Of a stretch of DNA of 64,000 nucleotides, positions 182 through 54,848 are shown in pieces. The stretch covers positions 1 to 64,000 of the forward strand of contig CACYQT010000024.1 of assembly GCA_902776645.1 (NCBI GenBank). The letters run 5' to 3'. Each line of letters opens with the position of its first letter. Position 1 is the stretch's first letter. The notes beneath the pieces are model-generated. The model was not told the origin of the DNA, made no database searches, and was given only the letters and a program-made list of their open reading frames with translations. The DNA is from an uncultured bacterium. GTDB lineage: Bacteria; Verrucomicrobiota; Lentisphaeria; Oligosphaerales; Oligosphaeraceae. Both the position numbers and the translations under genes were made by a program.

Positions 182-1915
182 TCACGCCTTGAGCTGCGGC
201 ATCGGGAAGTGCGTCGTCAGTTCGTTGACTTCCGCCTTCACCTGCGCGATGACGGCGTCGTCGTTGATGTTTTCCGCGACTCGCGTGATGAAATCAGCGA
301 TCTTCACCATTTCGGGCTCCTTCAGGCCGCGTGTCGTCACGGCGGGCGTGCCGACGCGGACGCCGCTGGTGACCGTCGGCTTCGCAGGATCGAACGGGAT
401 CAGATTCATGTTGACGGTGATGTCCGCGCGGTCCAACGCCGTCGCGAGATCCTTTCCGCTGACGCCTTTCGGACGGAGGTCGACCAGCATCAGATGGTTG
501 TCCGTGCCGCCGCTGACGATGCGGAAGCCGCGTTCCGCCAACGCTTTGGCCAAACAGGCGGCGTTCGCCTTGATCTGCTTCTGGTAGGCCTTGAAATCGT
601 CGCTCATGGCTTCCTTGAAGCAGACGGCCTTGCCGGCGATGATGTGCATGAGCGGACCGCCCTGCATGCCGGGGAACACTTTGGAATTGACGGCTTTAAG
701 ATACTGCTGCCTGCAGAGGATCAAGCCGCCGCGCGGGCCGCGCAGCGTCTTGTGCGTCGTCGTCGTCACGATGTCGCAGTACGGCACGGGGCTCGGATGC
801 TCGCCCGTCGCGACAAGACCCGCGATGTGGGCCATGTCCACCATCAGATACGCGCCGACCTTGTCCGCGATGGCGCGAAGCCGTGGGAAGTCGATGATGC
901 GCGGATACGCGCTGGCGCCCGCCAGAATCAGCTTCGGCTTGTTGTCAATGGCCAGCTGTTCAATCGTATCGTAGTTCAGCATCTCCGTTTCGGGATCGAC
1001 GCCGTAGCCGACGAAATGGTACGTCGCACCGGAGAAATTCACCTTGTGGCCGTGCGTCAGATGGCCGCCGTGGTCGAGGCTCATCGCCAGAACCGTGTCG
1101 CCCGGCTGAAGCAACGCCATATAGGCCGCCATGTTCGCCTGGCTGCCGGAATGCGGCTGCACGTTCGCGGCCTCCGCTCCGAACAGCTGGCAGGCGCGGT
1201 CGATGGCCGCCTGTTCGATTTCATCCACATGGACGCAGCCGCTGTAGTAGCGCTTGCCCGGATAGCCTTCCGCATATTTATTGGTAAGGATGGAGCCGCA
1301 GGCCGCGCGGACGGCCGGCGACGCGAAGTTCTCGGACGCGATCAGTTCCAGTCCACGTTCCTGGCGGGAGCGCTCCCGCTCGATCATCCCGTAGATTTCC
1401 GGATCGGCATGGCGGAGAGCCGCCGTGTCATCGTAGGTCATTGTCTCGATCTTGTTCAGGCGGCGCGTATGGCGCTCCGCCTGGCTGTACGGCGTCGCCA
1501 TCCATGCTTCGACGACTTTCAGGAATTCGTCCTTCGACATGCCGTTGCCGCCGCTGACCAGAATGTTCGAATTGTTGTGTTCGCGGGAGAGCGCCGCGCG
1601 TTCGGGGGCGAACGCCAACGCCGCGCGAAGGCCGTGGAAACGGTTCGCCGCGATTGACATGCCGATGCCGCTCTTGCAAATCAAGACGCCGCACGTGATC
1701 TCGCCTTTCAGCATGGCCTTGGAAACCTTCACCGCGTAGTCCGTGTAGTCGTCTTCCGGATCCAACGTCAACGGCCCCATGTCGACGACATCGATGCCGC
1801 GGCCTTTCAGCCACGCAACCAGCGCCGCCTTCAGTTCCAAACCGCCATGATCACTGCCGACGCCGACAATGTACTTGCTCGAATCGGCCTGCCAATCGCA
1901 CATCCTACTACACAT
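182..1915 (-). CDS. rpiB-glyA: Fused ribose-5-phosphate isomerase B / serine hydroxymethyltransferase
   Basis: The 577-residue protein joins two complete cytosolic enzymes. Residues about 14-155 are RpiB (ribose-5-P to ribulose-5-P), with the N-terminal SDHGG motif, Cys80 in [15 protein letters not shown] and the REHNNSN stretch. From Met159 (MTYDDTAAL) to the end is GlyA, the PLP enzyme interconverting serine and glycine with tetrahydrofolate; the PLP lysine is about Lys389 in [10 protein letters not shown]. The GlyA part is about 419 residues, the usual length of the free enzyme, so neither partner is truncated. The frame is continuous with a short linker. The start used has a weak SD (AAAGGCGG) about 10 nt upstream; Met5 is an alternative. 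It is divergent from the oxidoreductase operon. Both identities are firm; the benefit of the fusion is not known from sequence. Confidence 0.95.
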
Positions 1916-12652: not shown

Positions 12653-13933
12653 ATGCGCATCATACTCCAAGACTCATCCGATTTCCAAGAGCAACTGAAA
12701 CCGTTGCTCAACCGCTCCGCCTTCGATCCGCAAATCGACAAAAGCGTCGCGCAGATTCTCGCCGACGTCAAAGCCAACGGCGACGCCGCGCTCGTCGAAT
12801 ACGCCAAACGGTTCGACCATGTCGATCTGACGCCCGAAACCTTCCGCGTCAGCCTGGACAGCGTTCCCGCCATCGACGACGAGACGATCCAGGCCATCAA
12901 GACGGCCGTGGACCATGTCTCCGCCTTCTCGCGGCAGCGCATCCCGCAGGCGTGGTCGTTCTCGCCACGCGAAGGCGTTACGCTTGGCGAGCAGTTCGCC
13001 CCGCTGGACCGCGTCGGTTGCTACATTCCGGGCGGCACCGCGCCGTTGATTTCGACGGTCGTCCATACGGTCGCCATCGCGAAAGCCGCCGGCGTGAAGG
13101 AAATCGTTGTGGTCACGCCACCTGCGAAAGACGGCAACATCAATCCCGCCGTTCTGAACGCCTGCAAAATCGCGGGCGCGACGGAAGTCTACAAGCTCGG
13201 CGGCGTCTATGCCGTCGCCGCCTTGGGGTATGGTACGCAGACCATCCGCAAAGTTCAAAAAATCGTCGGTCCGGGCAACGCCTACGTGACGGCGGCGAAG
13301 CGCCAGCTCTACGGCGAAGTCGCTCTCGATCTCGTCGCCGGCCCGTCTGAAATCATGGTTCTGGCAGACAAGACGGCCAATCCGGCCTATGTCGTGGCGG
13401 ACGTCCTGTCGCAGGCGGAACATGGCTCAGGCCGTGAACAGGCCGTCTTGATTTCGACGGACAAGGAACTTATCACGAAAGTCCAGGCGGAGATCGCCGA
13501 ACAGGCCGCAAAACTTTCCCGCGCGGAATGCGTCCAAAAAGTTTTGGCGAACGGCGTCTTCCTTATCGAGGCGAAATCGCGTGAGCAAGCCGCCGAACTC
13601 GCCAATTTCTACGCGCCCGAACATCTTGAAATCGATATGGAGAATCCAGAGGAAATCGCCAAAAAGATCACTTCCTGCGGCGCCATCTTCCTTGGTCCAT
13701 GGACGCCTGAGCCCGTCGGCGATTTCGTCGCGGGGCCGTCCCACGTCCTGCCCACTGGCGGCTCGGGCCGTTTCTTCTCCGGTCTGACGGTCGAGACATT
13801 CTTCCGCCGCATGAGCGTCGTGAAATACGACCGCCCTGCCCTGATGCGCGATCTGCCTTATATCAAGACATTTGCGCGTAATGAAGGCCTCGACGCCCAC
13901 GGCAATTCCGCCGCCATCCGCGAAACACGATAA
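12653..13933 (+). CDS. hisD: Histidinol dehydrogenase
   Basis: A 426-residue zinc enzyme performing the last two oxidations of histidine synthesis (L-histidinol to L-histidine, 2 NAD+). Family signatures run in order: GCYIPGGTAPLISTVVHTVAIAKAAG, KIVGPGNAYVTAAKR, AGPSEIMVLADKTANPAYVVAD, SQAEHGSGREQAVL, GPSHVLPTGGSGRF and EGLDAHGNSAAIR. The length is normal. There is no SD; ATG follows CTATTTGAAAA directly. No other his gene is nearby, so it is not in a his operon here. It is followed by a GTGAGAC word array. Confidence 0.96.
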   Translation: MRIILQDSSDFQEQLKPLLNRSAFDPQIDKSVAQILADVKANGDAALVEYAKRFDHVDLTPETFRVSLDSVPAIDDETIQAIKTAVDHVSAFSRQRIPQAWSFSPREGVTLGEQFAPLDRVGCYIPGGTAPLISTVVHTVAIAKAAGVKEIVVVTPPAKDGNINPAVLNACKIAGATEVYKLGGVYAVAALGYGTQTIRKVQKIVGPGNAYVTAAKRQLYGEVALDLVAGPSEIMVLADKTANPAYVVADVLSQAEHGSGREQAVLISTDKELITKVQAEIAEQAAKLSRAECVQKVLANGVFLIEAKSREQAAELANFYAPEHLEIDMENPEEIAKKITSCGAIFLGPWTPEPVGDFVAGPSHVLPTGGSGRFFSGLTVETFFRRMSVVKYDRPALMRDLPYIKTFARNEGLDAHGNSAAIRETR

Positions 13934-15813: not shown

Positions 15814-15855
15814 TACGCAACGGGAAGGGCCGCTCCTACAGGATCGAAATATCGC

Positions 15856-15876
15856 GGACACGCGAGAGCGTGCTCC
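15856..15876. repeat. Small palindrome GGACACGC-GAGA-GCGTGCTCC
   Basis: CACGC pairs with GCGTG around a GAGA loop, flanked by GCTCCT words, 43 bp after argS. It looks like one more dispersed intergenic hairpin. There is no T-tract. Confidence 0.45.
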
Positions 15877-15938
15877 TCCCCATGCAACTGCAATCCGTTA
15901 TGTTCATTCCATACCACAACCAACCGACGGAGATGACA

Positions 15939-16805
15939 ATGATTTCTTGTAGGAAGATCCATGCTCTTGTACGAGCCATTGCCAGAAAGCTCCATGCTTT
16001 TATGCGGGTGACGACATTGTTTGCGGTTGCAACGATTCACGCTGAAGAGCAGTCTGAAGTCACACCTGATATCTCCACACCAGAAAAAGACGCCATTTCC
16101 AAATCTGAGAAAAGCCATGTTTCCATACCTGAATGGCTATATAGTTATAACCTTGGCATTATGAGACTTGGCTTCTATAATACAAAGCCAGGAGGATTGC
16201 TTGAAATCGGCCTATACAACAATGCGTCTTCCCATCATCATCCTCATGACTTTTTCATTCTTCCAGATACGTTGTTTCAATTAGGTGTCGTAAACGGCGG
16301 TAATAATCTAACTTCTTTCCGCGTCGGTATTGTGAATCTGCATGGAAATGTCTCGCATTCAGGTATTGACCTTGGGATTTACAACCACAATACCTGGGGA
16401 TGGCAAATTGGCCTTCTGGGATCTGCACAATCACGTAATTTGCAAACCAATCTTATCAATTATGGCGCTAATGGTCATGAAGGCATTCAAATCGGAGCGC
16501 TCAATATCAGTCAAAAGGCGAGACACGATTCTCCTCAATTGGGCCTTATCAATATTGCCCCCGGTTCGTCAGAAGGCCAATGCGGTCTTTTGAACATAGC
16601 ATATTCGAAAAGTGCTAATAGTGATACGACTCAAATCGGCTTAATCAACATTGGCATATATAAAAGCGATTATCAATTTGGACTAATCAATATCAGTACC
16701 AAATGGACAAGAAGCTTCGGCCTTCTGAATTTCAGAAATCGTTTTCCCTTTGTCACTCCCATATTTGGGCCCTGGAATATTCGTTCAATTGATCAATGGT
16801 TTTAG
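15939..16805 (+). CDS. Exported G-x-x-N repeat protein of low GC
   Basis: This 288-residue protein has an N-terminal signal-like segment ending TLFAVATIHAEEQ. The C-terminal two thirds hold short hydrophobic repeats of the form (Q/S)xGL(I/L)N(I/F): QIGALNIS, QLGLINIAPGS, QCGLLNIAYS, QIGLINIGIY, QFGLINISTK, SFGLLNFRNR. Such repeats resemble the LA_2272-type surface repeats and suggest a beta-helical or beta-sheet surface protein. The start at 15939 was chosen because CGGAG lies 6 nt upstream; ATGs at 15900 and 15933 are alternatives. Base composition is clearly AT-richer than argS and lnt on either side, which suggests later arrival. Function is unknown. Confidence 0.7.
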   Translation: MISCRKIHALVRAIARKLHAFMRVTTLFAVATIHAEEQSEVTPDISTPEKDAISKSEKSHVSIPEWLYSYNLGIMRLGFYNTKPGGLLEIGLYNNASSHHHPHDFFILPDTLFQLGVVNGGNNLTSFRVGIVNLHGNVSHSGIDLGIYNHNTWGWQIGLLGSAQSRNLQTNLINYGANGHEGIQIGALNISQKARHDSPQLGLINIAPGSSEGQCGLLNIAYSKSANSDTTQIGLINIGIYKSDYQFGLINISTKWTRSFGLLNFRNRFPFVTPIFGPWNIRSIDQWF

Positions 16806-16879
16806 TTTTCTGTAAATCGACAGCCATTTATCAGTCCATGCCTTTTGATGGTGACAAGGATGTCATCTTTTTACGCTAA

Positions 16880-18637
16880 ATGTTATCCAAACTCGAAAAC
16901 AATCTGGCATACGCGGTGGGCACATTGCTCTTCTGGCGGATCGTGGCGGCGGTCATCTCCGGCACTCTGCTGGCGTTGGCGTTTCCGCCGCTGAACTGCA
17001 GCATTGCCGCCTGGTTCGCCATGGTGCCGATCATTTTCGCGCCGCAGCCGCGCTCCATCCGCCAGCGGCTGTTTGTGGGCTATGTCTTCGGCTACGTCCA
17101 TTTCGCCATCAGCCTTTTCTGGCTGAATGAAGTCGGTTTCGGAGCAGGCTTTCTGCTGTCCATCTGGTGCGCCCTTTTCCCGATGGCATGGTATTGCCTG
17201 CTTTGCAGCCTGCTTGTCGCATTGAAGGATCCCAAAGCCGCCAAAATTCCGGGCGAATCCATCCTGTTTATCCGTCCAAACCGCACGCTGGCAATTCTTT
17301 CCATCACCGGAGCGGCTTCATGGACGGCCCTTGAATGGATACGCTCATGGCTGTTGACCGGATTTTCATGGAACCAGTTGGGAATCAGCCAGTTCAAGCG
17401 TTATGGCCTCATCCAGACCGCCGCCTGGACAGGCCCCTATGGCGCGTCATTTCTCATCGTTCTTGTCAACATGGTTCTCGCCGCGGAACTCGCGCAAATC
17501 GCGTGGATGATTCTTGCGCACCGCCGTCGAAACTTTCCATGGCATTTCGCCACGTTATTCGTCTTTCTCATTCCCGTCTGCATCGTCGCCAATCTGCCGG
17601 AAAAACTGGTCGAGCCCAACACGCCGGCTCTGGACACGCTAGTCGTCCAGCCTGATCTTCCGCAGGCCCGCATCTGGACGGAGGAGGACTATCTTCACGC
17701 CATGGATGTCCTCCAGAAACTGACGGAAAGCGCCTTGAAATCAACGGAAAAGCAACCGGACGTCGTCATGTGGCCGGAATGCGCCGTGCCCGCCCCGCTG
17801 AACTATCCGGACTACCGCTTCCGCCGCAACAACTTCCTGAAGCAATTCAATTCATTGTTTCTGATCGGCGCGACCCATCTTCGCCAGCCATCCCGTGACG
17901 TCAAGGAGCCGAACGTCTTCAACTGCGCCTTCCTCATCGATCCGCAAGCGGATTACATGAAAACCGTCTTCGATCCGGCGGACCATGTCGTCGACTACTA
18001 CGACAAAATCCACCGCGTCCCATTCGGCGAATTCACGCCATTCGGCAAATACCTCCCATGGCTCGTCGAACTCATCGGCATGGGACGCGATCTGACGCCT
18101 GGCAAATCCTTCCATATCATTGACTTGCCGAACGGCGCCCATGCCGGCGTCAACATCTGCTTCGAAGACGCCTTCCCCTACATCAGCCGCGAATTCGTGA
18201 AAAATGGCGCCAACATGCTGATGACCATCACAAACGACTCGTGGTACAACCGCTCCTGCGGCGCGCAGCAGCACATGGCGCATGTCGTCTTCCGCGCCGT
18301 CGAAAACCGCCGTCCGTTCCTGCGTTGAGGCTCCAACAGCCACTCCTGCCTCATTTCACCGAACGGCCGCATCCATGGCATGCTGCGCGACGACGCCAAC
18401 AATTCCGATTTCATCGCCGCCACACGTTTCTACAACGTTCCCGTCAAAGACTGGGGGACGACATTCTACACGCGTCATGGCGACATTTTCGCGCGGTTGA
18501 ACGCGCTGATCGCCCTCTCCGCCGTCGTCTGGCTTTCGCATGGATGGTTGCAGATTAAAAAAGCCCGCCTCAAAGCGGTGGAACCCAATACGAAGGCCTC
18601 GCCAAACGTTACGAATAAACGTTCCAAGAAATCCTGA
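16880..18637 (+). pseudogene. lnt: Apolipoprotein N-acyltransferase with an in-frame TGA
   Basis: Lnt adds the third acyl chain to lipoproteins in the inner membrane. The N-terminal part has several membrane helices (RIVAAVISGTLLALAFPPL and following). The nitrilase-like domain carries the catalytic triad as WPECAVPAP (Glu), YDKIHRVPFGEF (Lys) and GVNICFEDAFP (Cys). The frame meets TGA at 18326-18328 right after ENRRPFLR, then continues in the same frame for 102 codons (GSNSHSCLISPNGRIHG) and ends with the expected last membrane helix (LNALIALSAVVWLSHGW) at 18637. Homologues usually have a small residue or Cys at this point. The cause may be a sequencing error, a nonsense mutation or recoding. 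The catalytic part is intact. Confidence 0.85.
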
Positions 18638-35423: not shown

Positions 35424-37355
35424 ATGAACAAAATTACGTCTCAACAAGATTTGCTCGCTGCCTTCAACGCCAGCAAGAACGCTCTGGCCTTGCGTTGCGT
35501 CAGCGAACACGACATCAACTCCAAGAAGAAAGACATCCTCTGCTGCGGCGGTACCGGCTGCCATGCCTCCAACTCCAATGTGATGATGGACAACCTCCGC
35601 CAGCTCATCAAGGAGCACGGCCTTGAGAACGACGTCCGCGTCGTCCAGACCGGCTGCTTCGGTTTCTGCGCCCAGGGCCCGATCGTCAAGATCATGCCGG
35701 ACAACGTCTTCTACGTCCAGGTCCAGCCCGAAGACGCGAAGGACATCGTCGAACAGCACATCGTCAACCACCAGCTGGTCGAACGCCTCCTCTACGTCGA
35801 ACCCATGATCAAGGAACGCATCCATGACTATGCCAAGATGTCGTTCTACGCCAAGCAGGAACGCATCGCCCTCCGCAACTGCGGCCTCCTCGATCCTGAA
35901 GACATCTCCGAATACATCGCGGCGGAAGGCTACCAGGCCCTCGCCAAGTGCCTCTTCGACATGAAGCCCGCCGACGTCGTCCAGGAAGTTCTGAACTCCG
36001 GCATCTGCGGCCGTGGCGGCGCGGGATTCCCCACCGGCATGAAGTGGAAGATCGCCGCCGGCGTCCAGGCGGACGAGAAGTACATCGTCTGCAACGCCGA
36101 CGAAGGCGACCCCGGCGCGTTCATGGACCGCTCCATCATGGAAGGCGACCCGAACTCCATCATCGAAGCCATGGCCATCGGCGGCTACGCCATCGGCGCC
36201 CAGCATGGTCTCGTCTACATCCGCGCGGAATACCCGCTCGCCGTCAACCGTCTGCAGCTGGCCATCAACCAGGCCCGCGAAGTCGGCCTCCTCGGCAAGA
36301 ACATCATGGGCACGAACTTCAGCTTCGACATCGACATCAAGCTCGGCGCCGGCGCATTCGTCTGCGGCGAAGAGACGGCCCTGATCCACTCCATGGAAGG
36401 TATGCGCGGCGAACCCACCACCAAACCGCCATTCCCCGCGAACATCGGCGGCGGCTACTGGGGCTGCTCCACCAACGTCAACAACGTTGAAACCTACGCC
36501 TCCATCCCGGTCATCATCCGCAAAGGCGCCAAATGGTATGCCAAGATCGGCAACTGGAAGCCCGAACTCGATGAAAACGGCAACTTCGTCAAGACCATCA
36601 GCGGCAACGCCGGAACGAAGGTCTTCGCCCTCGCCGGCCAGATCAACAACGTCGGCCTCGTCGAAGTCCCCATGGGCACGACGCTCCGCGAAATCATCTA
36701 CGACATCGGCGGCGGCATCGCCGGCGGCCGTGAATTCAAGGCTGTCCAGACCGGCGGCCCCTCCGGCGGCTGCATCACCAAGGAAAACCTCGACACGCCT
36801 ATCGACTACGGCTCACTCGCCAAGATCGGTTCCATGATGGGTTCCGGCGGTATGATCGTCCTCTCCGACAAGGACTGCATGCCCGCCATGGCCAAATTCT
36901 ACCTCGGTTTCACGAAGGACGAGTCCTGCGGCAAGTGCACGCCCTGCCGTATCGGTACGCGCCGCATGCTTGAAATGCTTGAGAAGATCTGCGACGGCAC
37001 CGCCACGGAAGAAACGCTCGTCGAGCTCGAAAAACTCGCGAACACCATCCGCGACACCGCCCTTTGCGGCCTCGGCCAGACGGCCCCGAACCCCATCCTC
37101 TCGACGCTCCGTTATTTCAAGGACGAATACATCGCCCACGTCCGCGACAAGAAGTGCCCCGCCGGCACCTGCTCCAAGCTCTACACGCTGAAGATCACCG
37201 ACGCCTGCAAGGGCTGCACCAAGTGCGCCCGCAACTGCCCCGTCGGCGCCATCACCGGCGAAAAGAAGCAGAAGCATGTCATCGACGTCAACAAGTGCAT
37301 CAAGTGCGGCGCCTGCATCGACGGCTGCCCGTTCAAAGCCATTGTCAAGGAATGA
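35424..37355 (+). CDS. hydB: Hydrogenase beta subunit, NuoF-like flavoprotein
   Basis: This 643-residue subunit binds FMN, NAD(H) and several clusters. N-terminal thioredoxin-like [2Fe-2S] region: CCGGTGCHAS and QTGCFGFCAQGP. The NuoF core follows: CGRGGAGFPTGMKWKI (FMN), NADEGDPGAFMDRSIMEGDP (NADH) and ESCGKCTPCRIGTRRM ([4Fe-4S]). The C-terminal 2[4Fe-4S] ferredoxin domain has CKGCTKCARNCPVGAI and CIKCGACIDGCPFKAI. This build is that of confurcating/bifurcating HydB, coupling NADH and reduced ferredoxin oxidation to H2 formation. Soluble, cytosolic. Full length. Confidence 0.95.
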   Translation: MNKITSQQDLLAAFNASKNALALRCVSEHDINSKKKDILCCGGTGCHASNSNVMMDNLRQLIKEHGLENDVRVVQTGCFGFCAQGPIVKIMPDNVFYVQVQPEDAKDIVEQHIVNHQLVERLLYVEPMIKERIHDYAKMSFYAKQERIALRNCGLLDPEDISEYIAAEGYQALAKCLFDMKPADVVQEVLNSGICGRGGAGFPTGMKWKIAAGVQADEKYIVCNADEGDPGAFMDRSIMEGDPNSIIEAMAIGGYAIGAQHGLVYIRAEYPLAVNRLQLAINQAREVGLLGKNIMGTNFSFDIDIKLGAGAFVCGEETALIHSMEGMRGEPTTKPPFPANIGGGYWGCSTNVNNVETYASIPVIIRKGAKWYAKIGNWKPELDENGNFVKTISGNAGTKVFALAGQINNVGLVEVPMGTTLREIIYDIGGGIAGGREFKAVQTGGPSGGCITKENLDTPIDYGSLAKIGSMMGSGGMIVLSDKDCMPAMAKFYLGFTKDESCGKCTPCRIGTRRMLEMLEKICDGTATEETLVELEKLANTIRDTALCGLGQTAPNPILSTLRYFKDEYIAHVRDKKCPAGTCSKLYTLKITDACKGCTKCARNCPVGAITGEKKQKHVIDVNKCIKCGACIDGCPFKAIVKE

Positions 37356-37368
37356 GGAGGGACTAAAA

Positions 37369-39123
37369 ATGAGTGACGTAACAGTAAAAATCAACGGCAA
37401 GCAAGTTTCCGTTCCCTCCGGCTCCACCATTCTGGAAGCCGCCCAGAAGCTGAACATCAACATCCCGACCCTCTGCTACTGCAAGGATCTCGGCTGCGGC
37501 GTCTCCAACAAGCCCGCGTCCTGCCGCATATGCCTCGTCGAAGCCGCCGGCATCCGTCCGCGCCCCGTGCTCGTGCCCGCCTGCGCGACTCCTATCACCA
37601 ACGACCGCGTCGAAGTCTGGACCAATTCGCAGCGCGCCCTCAACGCCCGCCGCACGGTTCTCGAACTGATGCTCTCCGACCACCCGAAAAACTGCCTGAC
37701 CTGCCCCAAGAACCAGGACTGCGAACTCCAGAAGCTCGCCGCCGAATTCGGCATCAGCGACATTGAATTCAAGGGCGAAGTCAACCACTTCCCGATCGAC
37801 GACTCCAGCGAAGCCATCATGCGCGACCTCTCCAAGTGCATCATGTGCCGCCGTTGCGAAACCGTCTGCAATAAGGTCCAGACCGTCGGCACCCTGACGG
37901 GCGTCGGCCGCGGCTTCTCCGCGAAGGTCGGTACCGCCAGCATGATCCCGCTCGCCGACACGTCCTGCACGTTCTGCGGTCAGTGCGTCAACGCCTGCCC
38001 CGTCGGCGCCATCACCGGCATCAGCTATGTCAAGAAGGTCTGGAACGCCATCAACGACCCGACCAAGACCGTCATCGTCAGCACGGCTCCCGCCGTCCGC
38101 GTCGCCGTCGGACAGGAATTCGGCTTCGAGCCCGGCACGCCTATCACGGGCAAGCTGGTCGCCGGCCTCCGCGCCCTCGGCTTCGACAAGGTGTTCGACA
38201 CCGATTTCGCCGCCGACCTTACCATCATGGAAGAAGGCACGGAGCTTCTCGGCCGTCTGAAGTCCGGCAAGAACCTGCCGATCCTGACGTCCTGCTGCCC
38301 CGGCTGGATCAATTTCATCGAGCACAACTTCCCGGATCTGCTCCACATCCCGTCCTCCTGCAAGTCCCCGCAGCAGATGTTCGGCGCCATCGCCAAGAGC
38401 TACTACGCGGAAAAGATGGGCATCGCCCCGAAGGACCTCATCGTCGTCTCCGTCATGCCCTGCCAGGCGAAGAAGTACGAGGCCGCGCGCCCCGAATTCT
38501 CGCATGACGGCGTTCGCGACATCGACTACGTCGTCACCACCCGCGAACTCTGCAAGATGTTCCGCGAAGCCGGCGTCAACCTCGCCAACATGAATGACGA
38601 AGAATACGACAACCCGCTCGGCGAATCCACCGGCGCGGCCGTTATCTTCGGTGTCACGGGCGGCGTTCTCGAAGCGGCCCTCCGTACTGTCAAGTCCATC
38701 GTCACGGGCAAGGATCTGGTGGCCGACGCCATCAACTTCCGCGCTGTCCGCGGTCTCGACGGCGTGAAGGAAGCGACGGTCGAAATCACGCCCGACGTGA
38801 AGGTCAACGTCGCCGTCGCCTCCGGCCTCGGCAACGCCCGCAAGGTTCTTGAAATGGTCCGCGAAGACCCCAACCGCTTCCAGGCCATCGAAATCATGGC
38901 CTGCCCCGGCGGCTGCATCAACGGCGGCGGTCAGCCCTACCTCCATGGTCATCGCGACCTGCTGGACAAGCGTATGGCCGGCCTCTATCTCGAAGACGCC
39001 AACAAGCCGCGCCGTATGTCCCACCAGAATCCGGACATCAAGAAACTCTACGACGAGTATCTTGGCCAGCCCGGCTCCGAGAAGGCACACCACCTCCTCC
39101 ACACGCACTATCATCAGAAGTAA
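37369..39123 (+). CDS. hydA: [FeFe]-hydrogenase catalytic subunit
   Basis: This 584-residue catalytic subunit has an N-terminal [2Fe-2S] plant-type domain (YCKDLGCGVSNKPASCRICLVEA), a His-ligated [4Fe-4S] region (HPKNCLTCPKNQDCELQ) and two [4Fe-4S] clusters (CIMCRRCETVC, CTFCGQCVNACPVGAI). The H-cluster motifs are L1 TSCCPGWINF, L2 VMPCQAKKYEA and L3 MACPGGCINGGGQPY. Group A, NAD-linked trimeric type. Start 37369 has SD GAGGAGG about 9 nt upstream; upstream in-frame codons lie inside hydB and are not used. HydEFG maturation genes are not in the window. H2 production balances fermentative redox. Confidence 0.97.
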   Translation: MSDVTVKINGKQVSVPSGSTILEAAQKLNINIPTLCYCKDLGCGVSNKPASCRICLVEAAGIRPRPVLVPACATPITNDRVEVWTNSQRALNARRTVLELMLSDHPKNCLTCPKNQDCELQKLAAEFGISDIEFKGEVNHFPIDDSSEAIMRDLSKCIMCRRCETVCNKVQTVGTLTGVGRGFSAKVGTASMIPLADTSCTFCGQCVNACPVGAITGISYVKKVWNAINDPTKTVIVSTAPAVRVAVGQEFGFEPGTPITGKLVAGLRALGFDKVFDTDFAADLTIMEEGTELLGRLKSGKNLPILTSCCPGWINFIEHNFPDLLHIPSSCKSPQQMFGAIAKSYYAEKMGIAPKDLIVVSVMPCQAKKYEAARPEFSHDGVRDIDYVVTTRELCKMFREAGVNLANMNDEEYDNPLGESTGAAVIFGVTGGVLEAALRTVKSIVTGKDLVADAINFRAVRGLDGVKEATVEITPDVKVNVAVASGLGNARKVLEMVREDPNRFQAIEIMACPGGCINGGGQPYLHGHRDLLDKRMAGLYLEDANKPRRMSHQNPDIKKLYDEYLGQPGSEKAHHLLHTHYHQK

Positions 39124-48014: not shown

Positions 48015-48225
48015 TGGGCTGTACGCGCTCCTGCTCGTCCAGCAGCGCGAAGCACACCACAAAGCCGCATCGCGGCGAAAGTATCCCAGCCGTGGGTGAA
48101 GTGCGCAACGCGCACGTAACCCACAGGAAATGCGATATTAACATTAGAACCGTGTAGCGGTGGCAGGATTCCAACCATGGGTGCAACCCCACAGCATTAT
48201 GAATTACAAATTATGAATTTTGCAT
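48015..48225. repeat. GC-rich REP-type region and ATTATGAATT words
   Basis: No credible gene lies between 47859 and 48210. After the boundary hairpin there are several small palindromes (for example GTGCG-CAACG-CGCAC near 48101) and the motif GGTGGCAGGATTCCAACCAT. The end has two ATTATGAATT words 14 bp apart (48196, 48210); the second encodes the end and TAA stop of the RhuM-like gene. The region looks like a composite of dispersed repeats. Confidence 0.55.
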
Positions 48226-49176
48226 TGAAAAAGCCCTTACCTTTAGATTCGATATTTCTGATGAGTCCAGTTGTGTGAACGCAAAGCATTTTCGTCCAAG
48301 ATCCTTCAACGATGCACCGACAAGATAGAGTGTCTTGTCATCAATGATAAGAAAGCTGTCATGGAAGTTTGCGCTTTCATGGATTGTCAGTCTACCGTAT
48401 TGCATGTTGAAGTTGTCTATATCGCTTGTGCTCAACTTGTTGCCATTTCGTGACGTCACAATCTCCAATGTCACGCCTTTCGACTTCTTCGATAATATAT
48501 CCAGCGTGATGACATCAACCCAATTGTCTATGAGAAAAATCGACTGTTTAGCTGAAAGAATAAGCCGTGTAGCGAACACACGGGCGTCGAAGACCTGTCC
48601 GTCGTAGAATACGCCTTGTATTGGTGGTAGCGATGTCTGGACAAAGAAATCCACTTTCTCCTTCAATTCACCGATATCCTGTTCATGTTCCGCCAACCGC
48701 CTGTCAACTTTGTCTTCCAATTGGTTCAAGCGGGAATTGATTGAAAAGCCACGTAGAAGATAATCTTTTAGCACTGCATTGGCCCAACGTCGAAATACAA
48801 TGCCTTGTGAAGATTTGACCCTATAGCCAACAGATAAAACAACATCCAAATTGTAATATTCAACCTGATAGACCTTGCCATCTGCGGCAGTTGTCGCAAA
48901 TTTTGCGACAACTGGAACACGTCCATCTTGAACTGGCGCAAATTTTGCGACAGTTGGACTTGTCATCATGCGTTCCATTTTGGAACGCATGCTTGTTTCA
49001 GCAAGCTCTTCGACAAGTGCATTGGCGATGTGCTTACCTATTGTCTTGACATCACGTCCAAATAATTGGGCCATCTGCTGACGATTAAGCCACACCATCT
49101 CATCTTCCAGGCGCACTTCCAGTCGGATTGTTTCATCTGGTTGATAGACGACAATTTCATTCTTTGTCTTGTTCAT
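48211..49176 (-). CDS. RhuM-family protein with PLD-like C-terminal region
   Basis: The 321-residue protein has the RhuM/DNA-binding N-terminus (VWLNRQQMAQLFGRDVKTIGKHIANAL, a helix-turn-helix-like segment), the repeat VAKFAPVQDGRVPVVAKFATT, then YYNLDVVLSVGYRVKSSQGIVFRRWANAVLKDYLLRGF. A coiled-coil segment (about 145-180) leads to a C-terminal domain with FHDSFLIIDDKTLYLVGASLKDLG, like a degenerate phospholipase D (HxK) motif. RhuM proteins occur in pathogenicity and defence islands; their activity is not established. Its ATG overlaps the stop of a truncated upstream copy. It is the first gene of the AT-richer island. Confidence 0.8.
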   Translation of the reverse strand: MNKTKNEIVVYQPDETIRLEVRLEDEMVWLNRQQMAQLFGRDVKTIGKHIANALVEELAETSMRSKMERMMTSPTVAKFAPVQDGRVPVVAKFATTAADGKVYQVEYYNLDVVLSVGYRVKSSQGIVFRRWANAVLKDYLLRGFSINSRLNQLEDKVDRRLAEHEQDIGELKEKVDFFVQTSLPPIQGVFYDGQVFDARVFATRLILSAKQSIFLIDNWVDVITLDILSKKSKGVTLEIVTSRNGNKLSTSDIDNFNMQYGRLTIHESANFHDSFLIIDDKTLYLVGASLKDLGRKCFAFTQLDSSEISNLKVRAFSMQNS

Positions 49177-49472
49177 GAGAAGTTCTCCAGAAAAGCAGTT
49201 GTCGCAAATTTTGCGACAACTGGAACACGTCCATCCTGAACTGTCACAAATTTTGCGACTGTTGGACTCATCATCATGCGTTCCATTTTGGAACGCATGC
49301 TTGTTTCAGCAAGCTCTTCGGCAAGTGCATTGGCGATGTGCTTACCTATTGTCTTGACATCACGTCCAAATAATTGAGCCATCTGATGACGATTAAGTCA
49401 CACCGTCTCATCTTCCAGACGAATTGTCTCATCTGGCTGATAGACGACGATTTCATTCTTTGTCTTGTTCAT
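49173..49472 (-). pseudogene. Truncated tandem copy of the RhuM-like gene
   Basis: Starts MNKTKNEIVVYQPDETIRLEDETV, then TGA where the full copy has Trp, then LNRHQMAQLFGRDVKTIGKHIANALAEELAETSMRSKMERMM and ends AKFATTAFLENFS. It matches the first 96 or so codons of the downstream gene but lacks four codons (VRLE) and has several substitutions. The two reading frames meet in ATGA at 49173-49176. It arose by a tandem duplication of the 5' part and then decayed. The only clear promoter lies in front of this copy. Confidence 0.85.
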
Positions 49473-49523
49473 TACAATATTCTCAATTGGCCATAAAGTT
49501 ACAAGTAAATTTGTTTTATGAAT

Positions 49524-49551
49524 ATTATAACATGCTAATAAAGAATATCAA
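49524..49551 (-). promoter_or_regulatory. Sigma70 promoter for the RhuM region
   Basis: On the minus strand TTGATA (49546-49551), 16-nt spacer, TATAAT (49524-49529), about 52 nt before the ATG of the truncated copy. It is the best sigma70 match in the window together with the one at 56195. Confidence 0.65.
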
Positions 49552-49570
49552 GACATTATATAAAATTTCT

Positions 49571-49680
49571 TAAAATATCAAATTATATCATAAAAATCAT
49601 CTCAAATCATACAAAATCATAGAGATTATCAAAGAATCATAAAATGTCATAATAAATGATAATAATTGATATTAAATCAA
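49571..49680. repeat. 10-bp-phased ATCAT / A-tract array upstream of the RhuM promoter
   Basis: ATCA(T) ends recur at 49580, 49590, 49600, 49610, 49620, 49630, 49640 and (as GTCAT) 49650, then ATGAT at 49660 and TTGAT at 49670, an exact 10-bp period, each preceded by an A-run. The array lies directly upstream of the RhuM promoter on its strand. Helically phased A-tracts bend DNA and can stimulate promoters. The rest of 49473-49902 holds no gene that can be supported. Confidence 0.65.
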
Positions 49681-49902
49681 GGTTATAAAAGGCCTGAAAT
49701 TAGGTTTGATAAATAACTTTCACATCTGACAATGACCTAAAAAACGTGAAGTGGCACCTGCCCTCAGAACGCCACTGTCTGAAGGAAGAGACTTGTTTTG
49801 CTGTATCCATCATCTCTGAAATGTGCCCGAAGTCATTGAAAGTTATAAAACATATACTAAATTACATTAGGATTCTTTATGACATTTGGCACATTGTCAT
49901 AA

Positions 49903-50174
49903 GGCAGATTTTATCATGGTCAATCCGCCGTTCTTTCTATCCGTTTGGAGGTGCTTGAGACTGCGTGGAGGATTATGCCTATTATACGTTGCTGGAGAAG
50001 CTTGCGAATAAACATGACGATGCCGCTGCGAAGAAGATTCTGGAGAACGTGAAGGCGTTGGTTTTCATTCCGAACGCAGGAGAACGGAAGTCAGAACATC
50101 TGTTGCCGCAGCCGGAACGGCTCACCTACCTACGTTGGCTGGTAGTTGAAGCGATCGTACGGTTGATGCGATAG
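49903..50174 (+). pseudogene. DUF4091-domain C-terminal relic, frameshifted
   Basis: GRFYHGQSAVLSIRLEVL (from 49903), then after a one-base loss near 49957, DCVEDYAYYTLLEKLANKHDD and LENVKALVFIPNAGERKSE to a stop at 50174. The joined sequence fits the end of DUF4091 domains, typically (Y)PG..G.vPSIRLE.LRDGIEDYEYL. DUF4091 caps many glycoside-hydrolase-like proteins of this phylum. Only the last about 90 residues remain; no upstream body is found. An insertion or deletion event at the island may have cut it off. Confidence 0.55.
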
Positions 50175-50234
50175 CGGCCTATGCGTCCCGCCTGCACCGT
50201 GGGATGTGGCACAGGCGGAACGTACAACCAGACT

Positions 50235-51041
50235 TCAATAGATAATTTGACAATGGTAATGTACTTTTTTCATTTTGATTGGTTGCGACAGTATCAGCAC
50301 AGGCTTGAACTGGACTTTTATTTGAACCAAGTAGAAACCACCAAACGGCGAAAAAACGCAGTATTCCACGACTGCTGCGTCATTTCCCATTGTCACTCTG
50401 GGGGCCGGTTGCCATGACAACAGCTCTTTCCTTTCATTCTCCGTTAGATATTTTATATCAAACAGTTCATGTTCATATTGGGTGAAATCGTTGCCAAAAT
50501 ACTTTCCCGTAAAGAATTCCTCCATATCATAGATGATTTTTATTTCATTATATCCTGCATGTCTCACGAGATTGAATTGGTCTCCGAGTTCCATAAGCAG
50601 GATTAACTCCCATGCTCCTTCTGGCGTGAAATCGGGGCGGACATTGTCGAGGATGTCGATGTCTTTCGGCATCAAGTCACCAAGACACGTTGGGGAATTG
50701 TTCGGTAATCGCGGATCTGTTGATTTCCTGACATAAAGTGTCGGATATGAACTGAAATCATCGCCCGATTGATAGTAGTCAAGACAAGAACCTTTGGGAA
50801 AATGAAGATGAGGAAGGGCTTCCATCATTGTGGCGAGTGGAGTGGAATGCCTCCAGAAACAGAACAATCTACAGCACTTCCAGTAGAGTCGCTTGACATG
50901 AAGGACAACCGAATAGTCTTCAAAAATATCGATCTCGTTAAGCGTTTTCTTCCTTAGGTTGCGAATCGTCTTCCAGAACACCTTTAGTCTTGCAATGAGA
51001 CGTTCTGATTCGCCATCTCGTTCAAATGTTTCATTTGTCAT
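50235..51041 (-). CDS. Hypothetical protein of the accessory island
   Basis: The 268-residue protein is not recognised. The start at 51041 has AGGAAA about 8 nt upstream (an ATG at 51113 is less likely). N-terminal 60 residues are basic and helical (RLIARLKVFWKTIRNLRKKTLNEIDIFEDY); a Cys/Trp-rich stretch KCCRLFCFWRH follows; the remainder is acidic and aromatic with LRLP-like and WELILLMELGDQFNLV segments. No signal peptide. AT-rich composition and isolation between the relic and mcrBC suggest accessory cargo. An immunity or small regulatory role is possible but unsupported. Confidence 0.5.
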   Translation of the reverse strand: MTNETFERDGESERLIARLKVFWKTIRNLRKKTLNEIDIFEDYSVVLHVKRLYWKCCRLFCFWRHSTPLATMMEALPHLHFPKGSCLDYYQSGDDFSSYPTLYVRKSTDPRLPNNSPTCLGDLMPKDIDILDNVRPDFTPEGAWELILLMELGDQFNLVRHAGYNEIKIIYDMEEFFTGKYFGNDFTQYEHELFDIKYLTENERKELLSWQPAPRVTMGNDAAVVEYCVFSPFGGFYLVQIKVQFKPVLILSQPIKMKKVHYHCQIIY

Positions 51042-51594: not shown

Positions 51595-53814
51595 ATGGAT
51601 AATCAATTTAAGTGGGTAAACTTTTATATAGAGTTTGCAACAAAATTATTGGAATACAAAAATGATAGAAGTTCTCTAATCAGCAAGATAAAGAATGTGT
51701 ATTCTGATATCCAGACGAAACTTCCAACACTCGAATATGACAATAATATGTTAAAGGATATTGATCCTTTTACAATATTTGCGTTATTTAATAAGGGAAT
51801 AAGTGATAAAAATCGTCTTTCAATCATTGGTGGAATAAAGAAAGAATTTGAAGTAGTTTCTGATTTACCTGATACCTTGTATGGTATTCCTTGTGTAAAT
51901 AATATGATGGCAACATTCTATGCCTTTGAAGGAAGCAAAGAAAGAAAAGATGATGATATCAACAATCTATGGGAAATGTATGAGGTTGCTATAACTCTTT
52001 CTGAAAAAGATACAAATGCAAACAGAGCATCATTCAGCATTGTATATGATCAAGTTAGAATGCAATATGCAATTCGTTGGAATCTGACAATGGGGCTGTA
52101 TTGGATTCGACCTTATTCATTTATAACTCTTGATTCTTTTTCCAGAGGTTTCATGAGCAATCCTGACAATGTTTCTGATGATGTGGTTGAGGAAATCAAA
52201 AAATTGAAGCCATATGACCTTCCAACAGCCGAAAAATATCTTTCTATTTGTGACAAGTGCCACTCTGTCATTGCAACAGGGAAATATGGATATTCATCTT
52301 TTCCAGAATTTTGTTATAATGCTTGGACAAAATCTGTAAAAGAAAATGGTAAAACAAAAGAAAACGGTGAGCAAGTTTCTGAAATTGATAAGCCTGTTGA
52401 AACGGATAATCTTACTCAAGAAAAAAACAATAATGCTCTTGGCGATGCTGATGTAAAAACAGTTCGTTATTGGGTTTATGCGCCAGGGGAAAAAGGTTAC
52501 TTATGGGAGGATTTTTATGATGCTGCTATCATGGCAATTGGTTGGTCTGAATTAGGGGATTTGAAAACTTATACTAGCAAGTCTGAAATGGTTCAGAAAC
52601 TTCAGGAAGCATGGGGAGGAAATTCAACATATTCGAATACAGCATTAGCTGCATGGCAATTTGTCAAAGATATTAAACCAGGTGATGTTGTCTTTGCCAA
52701 AAAAGGAGTTACCGAGATTCTAGGTCGCGGAATTGTTGAATCTGACTATGTGTATGATGAAGATGGTATAGGTGGTTATCCTCACATTCGCAAGGTAAGA
52801 TGGACGCATAAAGGCTGTTGGCAAATTGATGGGTTACCCCAGAAGACATTGACGGATATAACCAATTACACAGATTTTGTAAAAACAATAACTAAGTTCT
52901 TCGATGAAGATACTGATTCAGAGATAGAAGACACAACGATAAATGCTTATCCAGAATATTCAAAGAAAGATTTTCTTGATGAAGTCTATATGGATGAGAA
53001 AACATATAACAAGCTTGCAGGAGTGCTAAACAATAAGAAGAACATCATCTTGCAGGGAGCTCCTGGCGTTGGTAAGACGTTTGTTGCCAAACGACTAGCG
53101 TATTCTATTATGGGCGTAAAGGATGTTAATCGCGTCATGATGGTTCAATTTCACCAGAGCTATTCCTATGAAGACTTTATCATGGGGTTCAGACCATCGA
53201 AAAATGGTTTTGAAATAAAGACTGGTGCTTTCTATAACTTTTGCAAAAAAGCTGAACAAGATAGCGAAAATAAGTACTTTTTTATAATTGATGAGATAAA
53301 TCGTGGAAATTTGAGCAAGATTTTTGGTGAACTATTCATGTTGGTTGAAAATGACAAACGTGGGGAAAAGAATACATTACAATTGTTATATCGTGATGAA
53401 AAGTTTTATGTGCCAAGAAATGTTTATATTATTGGAATGATGAATACGGCGGATCGAAGCCTTGCCATGCTTGATTATGCACTTCGTAGAAGATTTGCAT
53501 TCTTTGATTTAAAGCCAGGCTTTACTACTGATGGATTTAAAGAATACAAGAACGCATTGAATAACAAGAAGTTTGATAAGTTGATCGAATGTGTTCAAAG
53601 TCTTAATGAACAGATTGCAATTGATGAATCTTTAGGTGAAGGATTCTGTATAGGCCATAGCTTTTTCTCCAATCTGCCAGCAGATGAAATAATGGATGAC
53701 AAGCTTCAGGAGATTGTGGAATATGAGCTGATTCCTTTATTGAAAGAGTATTGGTTTGATGAATCATCAAAAGTGAAAGATTGGAGCGAAAAGTTAAGGA
53801 GTTCTGTTAAGTGA
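51595..53814 (+). CDS. mcrB: McrB-type GTPase of a modification-dependent restriction system
   Basis: This 739-residue protein is the McrB motor and reader. N-terminal about 260 residues are a variable recognition region. At about 295-440 an EVE/YTH-like modified-base-reading domain is suggested by RYWVYAPGEKGYLWEDFYDAAIMAIGWSELGDL and GDVVFAKKGVTEILGRGIV. The AAA+ module has Walker A LQGAPGVGKT, Walker B FFIIDEINRGNLSKIFGE and the McrB GTPase signature MNTADRSLAMLDYALRRRF. It overlaps mcrC by 4 bp. SD AGGAAG. Strongly AT-rich compared with the host genes, a sign of transfer. It likely restricts DNA with modified bases from phages. Confidence 0.92.
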   Translation: MDNQFKWVNFYIEFATKLLEYKNDRSSLISKIKNVYSDIQTKLPTLEYDNNMLKDIDPFTIFALFNKGISDKNRLSIIGGIKKEFEVVSDLPDTLYGIPCVNNMMATFYAFEGSKERKDDDINNLWEMYEVAITLSEKDTNANRASFSIVYDQVRMQYAIRWNLTMGLYWIRPYSFITLDSFSRGFMSNPDNVSDDVVEEIKKLKPYDLPTAEKYLSICDKCHSVIATGKYGYSSFPEFCYNAWTKSVKENGKTKENGEQVSEIDKPVETDNLTQEKNNNALGDADVKTVRYWVYAPGEKGYLWEDFYDAAIMAIGWSELGDLKTYTSKSEMVQKLQEAWGGNSTYSNTALAAWQFVKDIKPGDVVFAKKGVTEILGRGIVESDYVYDEDGIGGYPHIRKVRWTHKGCWQIDGLPQKTLTDITNYTDFVKTITKFFDEDTDSEIEDTTINAYPEYSKKDFLDEVYMDEKTYNKLAGVLNNKKNIILQGAPGVGKTFVAKRLAYSIMGVKDVNRVMMVQFHQSYSYEDFIMGFRPSKNGFEIKTGAFYNFCKKAEQDSENKYFFIIDEINRGNLSKIFGELFMLVENDKRGEKNTLQLLYRDEKFYVPRNVYIIGMMNTADRSLAMLDYALRRRFAFFDLKPGFTTDGFKEYKNALNNKKFDKLIECVQSLNEQIAIDESLGEGFCIGHSFFSNLPADEIMDDKLQEIVEYELIPLLKEYWFDESSKVKDWSEKLRSSVK

Positions 53815-54848
53815 TCAGGATTCAAAACATCTACTATATGCTCGCCTACGCTTTTGATGTGTTGAATGCGCAGGGATACAAGAATGTAGCCACAGAAGAA
53901 TTTGAAAATGTAGCTGAACTTTGTGCTGCAATTCTTGTAGTAGGCATTTGTTCACTGATTAAGAAAGGTCTGGGAAAAGAGTATATTTCAGAGACAGAAG
54001 CATTGTCAACATTACGTGGCAAATTGGATATTTCAGAATCCATTAAAACACAAACTTTTCTGAAAAAGCAAATGATTTGTTCATATGATGATTTTTCTGT
54101 CAATTCTTTTATGAATCGGATTATAAAATCTACGGTTCTTGTCTTATTGAAAGGTAATATCTCAAAATCCCGAAAGAAAGAATTGAGAAAAATCATGGTT
54201 TTCTTTATGGATGTAGATGTAATTGATCTACACTCTATCAATTGGAATATACAATACAATAGAAATAATCAAACATATAGAATGATAGTTTCTATATGCT
54301 ATTTGATATTCAAAGGTTTATTGCAGACTCAATCAGATGGTACAACGAAACTGATGGATTTCTTGGATGAACGAAGAATGAACAAATTGTATGAAAAGTT
54401 CATTTTAGAATATTACAAGAAGGAACATCCAGAACTGACAGCTAATGCTTCACAAATTTCATGGCAATTAGATGATAATAATTGTGACATGCTACCAGTC
54501 ATGCAGTCCGATATTATGTTGACACAAAATGGAAATGTATTGATTATCGATGCAAAGTACTATTCCCATACCACCCAGAAGCAATATGACAAATATACAG
54601 TTCATTCAAACAATCTCTATCAGATATTCACGTATGTCAAAAACAAAGAAGCTGAATTAGCGATGCAATATCCGCATAAAGTTTCAGGTATGTTGTTATA
54701 CGCTAGAACAGATGAAGAAATATATCCTGAAAATGAATATCAAATGAGCGGTAATCAAATCGCAGTCAAGACATTAAATCTTGATTGTAATTTTGATATG
54801 ATAAAAAGTCAGCTTGATACAATTGCAGATAAATATTTTAAAGTTTAA
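53811..54848 (+). CDS. mcrC: McrC-type nuclease subunit
   Basis: The 345-residue McrC partner begins with GTG in the GTGA overlap with mcrB. N-terminal IQNIYYMLAYAFDVL is typical for the McrC N-terminus. The PD-(D/E)xK nuclease core is visible as MQSDIMLTQNGNVLIIDAKYY (Asp, Asp-Ala-Lys). It would be translocated by the GTPase ring and cut near modified sites. Complete length. Its last 11 bases overlap the 3' end of the convergent ATPase gene. Confidence 0.92.
   Translation: MIRIQNIYYMLAYAFDVLNAQGYKNVATEEFENVAELCAAILVVGICSLIKKGLGKEYISETEALSTLRGKLDISESIKTQTFLKKQMICSYDDFSVNSFMNRIIKSTVLVLLKGNISKSRKKELRKIMVFFMDVDVIDLHSINWNIQYNRNNQTYRMIVSICYLIFKGLLQTQSDGTTKLMDFLDERRMNKLYEKFILEYYKKEHPELTANASQISWQLDDNNCDMLPVMQSDIMLTQNGNVLIIDAKYYSHTTQKQYDKYTVHSNNLYQIFTYVKNKEAELAMQYPHKVSGMLLYARTDEEIYPENEYQMSGNQIAVKTLNLDCNFDMIKSQLDTIADKYFKV

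Follow-up and report, generated by a model that had tools for sequence, protein, structure and literature searches.

Apolipoprotein N-acyltransferase (Lnt) has as its closest described example the E. coli protein (PDB 8q2p/5n6h), whose nitrilase domain extends to residue 478, with the last membrane helix, TM8, coming after it and present in the structure (PMC5500890). Across Gram-negative bacteria, lipoprotein modification is described as essential (PMC6828757). An lnt gene interrupted by an in-frame TGA, as described below, invites comparison with two further kinds of sequence. In bacterial selenoproteins with a Sec/Cys pair, a TGA stands where near relatives have Cys; bacterial SECIS elements carry a small apical loop holding a guanosine, and a TGA seen in one sequence only is a mere candidate that may reflect a sequencing error (PMC1088965). 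In isolated nonsense changes or base errors of metagenome-assembled genes, a single substitution interrupts a gene whose remainder and whose relatives are intact. The locus shares with the first kind a TGA opposite the Cys of its near relatives, but it occurs once, at a non-catalytic position, and in company with neither Sec machinery nor SECIS features; from the second kind it differs in nothing notable. We regard its TGA as an ordinary event, and as a caution that an in-frame TGA opposite Cys, next to a hairpin, can mimic a new selenoprotein even in a genome that lacks the machinery and at a site whose hairpin is due to chance.

The window, by which we mean the whole stretch of 64,000 nucleotides that was analysed, belongs to a 5.01-Mb assembly in 164 contigs (89% complete); the named genomes nearest to it are those of Victivallales from the ruminant gut. 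Its lnt frame (Table 1) would encode 585 aa if the TGA were read through, and this translation matches NCBIfam TIGR00546 (275 bits against a cut-off of 133) as well as Pfam LNT_N and CN_hydrolase; it thus combines the membrane domain of Lnt with a hydrolase domain bearing the Cys of the catalytic triad. The domain order is that of the E. coli enzyme, and the catalytic Cys residues of the two align. The TGA, which lies in the context CTG CGT TGA GGC TCC (18320-18334), is the sole break in the frame, and no second lnt copy was found in a search of the genome carrying the window. The locus departs from E. coli Lnt in having a stop at the position of residue 443, so that the open frame ends before TM8; because the E. 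coli nitrilase domain continues to residue 478 with TM8 after it, a protein terminated after codon 482 would be without the end of the nitrilase domain as well as the last membrane helix. A sequence-only reading had held that the TGA breaks an otherwise intact lnt, that the 102 codons open after it encode the expected end of the enzyme, and that the position is not catalytic, all of which agrees with the profile matches, the translation and the alignment. It had further supposed that a real TGA would leave Lnt without its last membrane helix or dependent on read-through; the former stands, extended to the nitrilase end, and the latter is unsupported.

Table 1. Features of the interrupted lnt gene, in window coordinates.
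Feature	Position	Strand	Basis
lnt (apolipoprotein N-acyltransferase) frame, taken through the TGA to its natural end	16880..18637	+	TIGR00546, LNT_N, CN_hydrolase; alignment to E. coli Lnt
482-aa ORF (table 11) that covers the membrane part at the N-terminus and, with catalytic Cys427, most of the nitrilase domain	16880..18328	+	Alignment to E. coli Lnt (C427 = C387)
In-frame TGA, codon 483; TGC (Cys) in 4 same-genus genomes, Ser/Ala further off; opposite E. coli residue 443	18326..18328	+	Alignments of relatives
Tail under purifying selection, 102 codons and natural TGA stop: last nitrilase part and C-terminal membrane helix	18329..18637	+	Translation, omega
6-bp inverted repeat TGAGGC/GCCTCA, 16-nt loop; chance-level hairpin from the C-to-A change	18326..18353	+	Folding, counts in the window

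All four same-genus genomes, two of them at 87% protein identity and the other two at 68%, have TGC at codon 483 in a frame without interruption; more distant relatives have mostly Ser there, and some have Ala. Among the 26 family genomes with the region around this codon, a stop within it occurs in the window alone, so that the TGA is confined to one homologue, where a selenoprotein would be recognized by TGA in more than one. The comparison of related Lnt proteins had been proposed from the sequence alone as a check, and the sense codon found in all relatives lends recoding no support; the decay of the tail that was also mentioned there was not seen. Stops in the lnt of loci L051 and L062 were rejected as shared interruptions, both being at the natural end, as were those of L041 and L042, which lie beyond the aligned part and near the end. 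In a different genome of the order (G035:C69, locus L064), lnt carries an in-frame TGA opposite Trp at approximately residue 104 of the window Lnt; sitting at another residue, it was rejected as a shared TGA and is comparable to the isolated changes or base errors named above.

The tail is under purifying selection and is not decaying. Along the window branch it has a dN of 0.039, a dS of 0.42 and an omega of 0.09 (bootstrap 0.03-0.20), and lnt upstream of the TGA has an omega of 0.18 on the same branch. In a tail that had long gone untranslated, omega would approach 1. The stop is therefore either very recent or absent from living cells. Relaxed selection specific to lnt was rejected, as its window-branch omega is 2.4 times the between-sister value but the nearby gene for histidinol dehydrogenase (12653-13933) gives a similar ratio (2.9).

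Stops of this kind are rare in the surveyed stretches of the genome. Over the part of the window that two sister genomes also have (about 5.5-44 kb), the shared genes contain no interior stop or frameshift other than the lnt TGA, and the earlier suggestion that other genes here carry assembly errors finds no support over that range. A codon-usage survey of 854 kb of the source genome returned nine candidates for split genes, two of them TGA; the second of these (C4:156293) proved to be a plain gene boundary, and the lnt TGA is the only clear gene-splitting stop found. General recoding of UGA has left no sign in this genome.

We consider it very probable that the locus carries an isolated change from TGC (Cys) to the stop TGA in the otherwise normal, single-copy lnt of one genome, and that this TGA acts as an ordinary stop, with the caveat that Cys-to-TGA is also the pattern expected of a new selenoprotein. 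One C-to-A base change would be enough to turn the one codon into the other. Were the TGA present in cells, RF2 would presumably end translation there, and the resulting 482-aa Lnt, deprived of the last part of its nitrilase domain and of its C-terminal membrane helix, would almost certainly be inactive. As to the origin of the change, it seems somewhat probable that the assembled consensus contains a base error or the allele of a minority strain, and a real nonsense mutation that this strain acquired very recently is a substantial possibility that falls short of even; this division is a judgement, in which the single copy of lnt and the essential nature of lipoprotein modification were weighed against how seldom such stops occur in the genome. 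The apparent rarity of base errors in the stretches surveyed tips the balance slightly from an assembly error towards a real mutation. A real stop would mean that a Victivallales bacterium of the gut had recently lost a lipoprotein enzyme that is normally essential.

A much older truncation, with the 482-aa form a long-established functional or dispensable Lnt in this lineage, is very unlikely. Local rearrangement has occurred, since lnt lies just downstream of a stretch of about 1 kb (15814-16879) that is not in the sister genomes, but an old truncation predicts a neutral tail, against which stand the upper bound of 0.20 on the window-branch omega and the intact frame, and the part that would have been lost covers the nitrilase end and TM8, both present in the E. 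coli structure (PMC5500890).

Full-length Lnt could alternatively arise if a near-cognate or suppressor tRNA read the TGA often enough, perhaps in a regulatory manner. Continued purifying selection on the tail would fit such read-through, as would a single-copy gene in a process described as essential (PMC6828757), yet a recent change or an error accounts for the conserved tail equally well. Moreover, RF2 is present in the source genome (496 bits against a cut-off of 370), its tRNA-Trp has a CCA anticodon only, and no UCA-anticodon tRNA was found among 43 tRNA matches, nearly all of which could be typed and all typed ones of which have normal anticodons; UGA is therefore expected to terminate. 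The sequence-only reading was right in taking TGA as an ordinary stop elsewhere. Reassignment of UGA to sense was rejected, as none of its marks (a UCA tRNA, absence of RF2, many in-frame TGAs) was found and there is no excess of TGA-split genes. Given also that the TGA is conserved in no relative and that no other gene in the survey is split by TGA, we hold read-through to be highly improbable, and think equally little of the proposition that the TGA is real and fixed in the species, with full-length Lnt made by SelB-independent read-through. Were the latter true, an enzyme of lipoprotein maturation would depend on stop-codon suppression.

The TGA also opens a perfect inverted repeat, as had been described from the sequence alone: TGAGGC (18326-18331) and GCCTCA (18348-18353) are exact reverse complements. 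Perfect 6-bp hairpins with loops of 3-30 nt begin at 793 positions of the window (1.2%), and 16 of its 937 TGA triplets (1.7%) open one. With its flanks, the site folds no better than shuffled sequence (z -0.33 over 45 nt, z +0.12 over 81 nt), and a z of -2.3 is reached only by a 31-nt cut around the arms. The closest relative has TGCGGC...GCCTCA at the same site, one mismatch short of the repeat; a single C-to-A change therefore creates both the stop and the perfect repeat. An Rfam scan of the site gave no SECIS match, only two sub-threshold chance matches, and where a bacterial SECIS element would have a stem-loop immediately downstream of the UGA, its small apical loop bearing a G, there is a 6-bp stem closing an open loop. 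The hairpin is a coincidence that arose with this one base change and has no function, and its hinted tie to recoding is not borne out.

The search for selenocysteine machinery that had been proposed alongside the original observation gave the outcome named there as refuting: no genuine match to SelA, SelB, SelD or tRNA-Sec was found in the source genome, where, at 89% completeness, missing genes are not absolute proof of absence. SelA had no match above its cut-off; the best SelB match (190 bits against 242) is EF-Tu, the best SelD match reached 21 bits against 125, and those matches to the tRNA-Sec model that were typed are tRNA-Ser, -Trp, -Gly, -Arg and -Met. SelA is absent from all 25 family genomes searched (the source genome and 24 others), and its only match above cut-off lies in another family of the order. 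Insertion of selenocysteine at this codon, the hairpin serving as its bacterial SECIS element, could draw on the Cys of the nearest relatives, the open conserved tail and the hairpin that begins at the TGA, but it is largely refuted already and has a negligible probability, given the missing machinery, the 16-nt open loop, the non-catalytic and mostly Ser-bearing site and the occurrence of the TGA in one sequence only (PMC1088965). Taken together, recoding and read-through retain a very small probability. What endures of the earlier interpretation is the interrupted intact lnt, the non-catalytic site and the ordinary TGA; the link to hairpin, selenocysteine or read-through, which it had thought conceivable, does not.

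Several other features of the window merit mention. The stretch at 15814-16879, between argS and lnt, is missing from the two closest sister genomes, in which these genes are about 45 bp apart; the protein that it encodes carries repeats of the LINI/GLIN type and matches no Pfam family. A RhuM-family gene at 48211-50235 (-), with a partial PF13310 match and repeated SPTVAKF...VPVVAKFATT peptides, has ahead of it a partial and diverged duplicate of its 5' part and lies near an McrBC pair (51595-54848). At 182-1915 (-), a single frame of 577 aa fuses an RpiB/LacAB-type isomerase domain to serine hydroxymethyltransferase, and what looks like an NADH-dependent [FeFe]-hydrogenase has adjoining subunits at 35424-37355 and 37276-39123 (Complex1_51K, Fe_hyd_lg_C).
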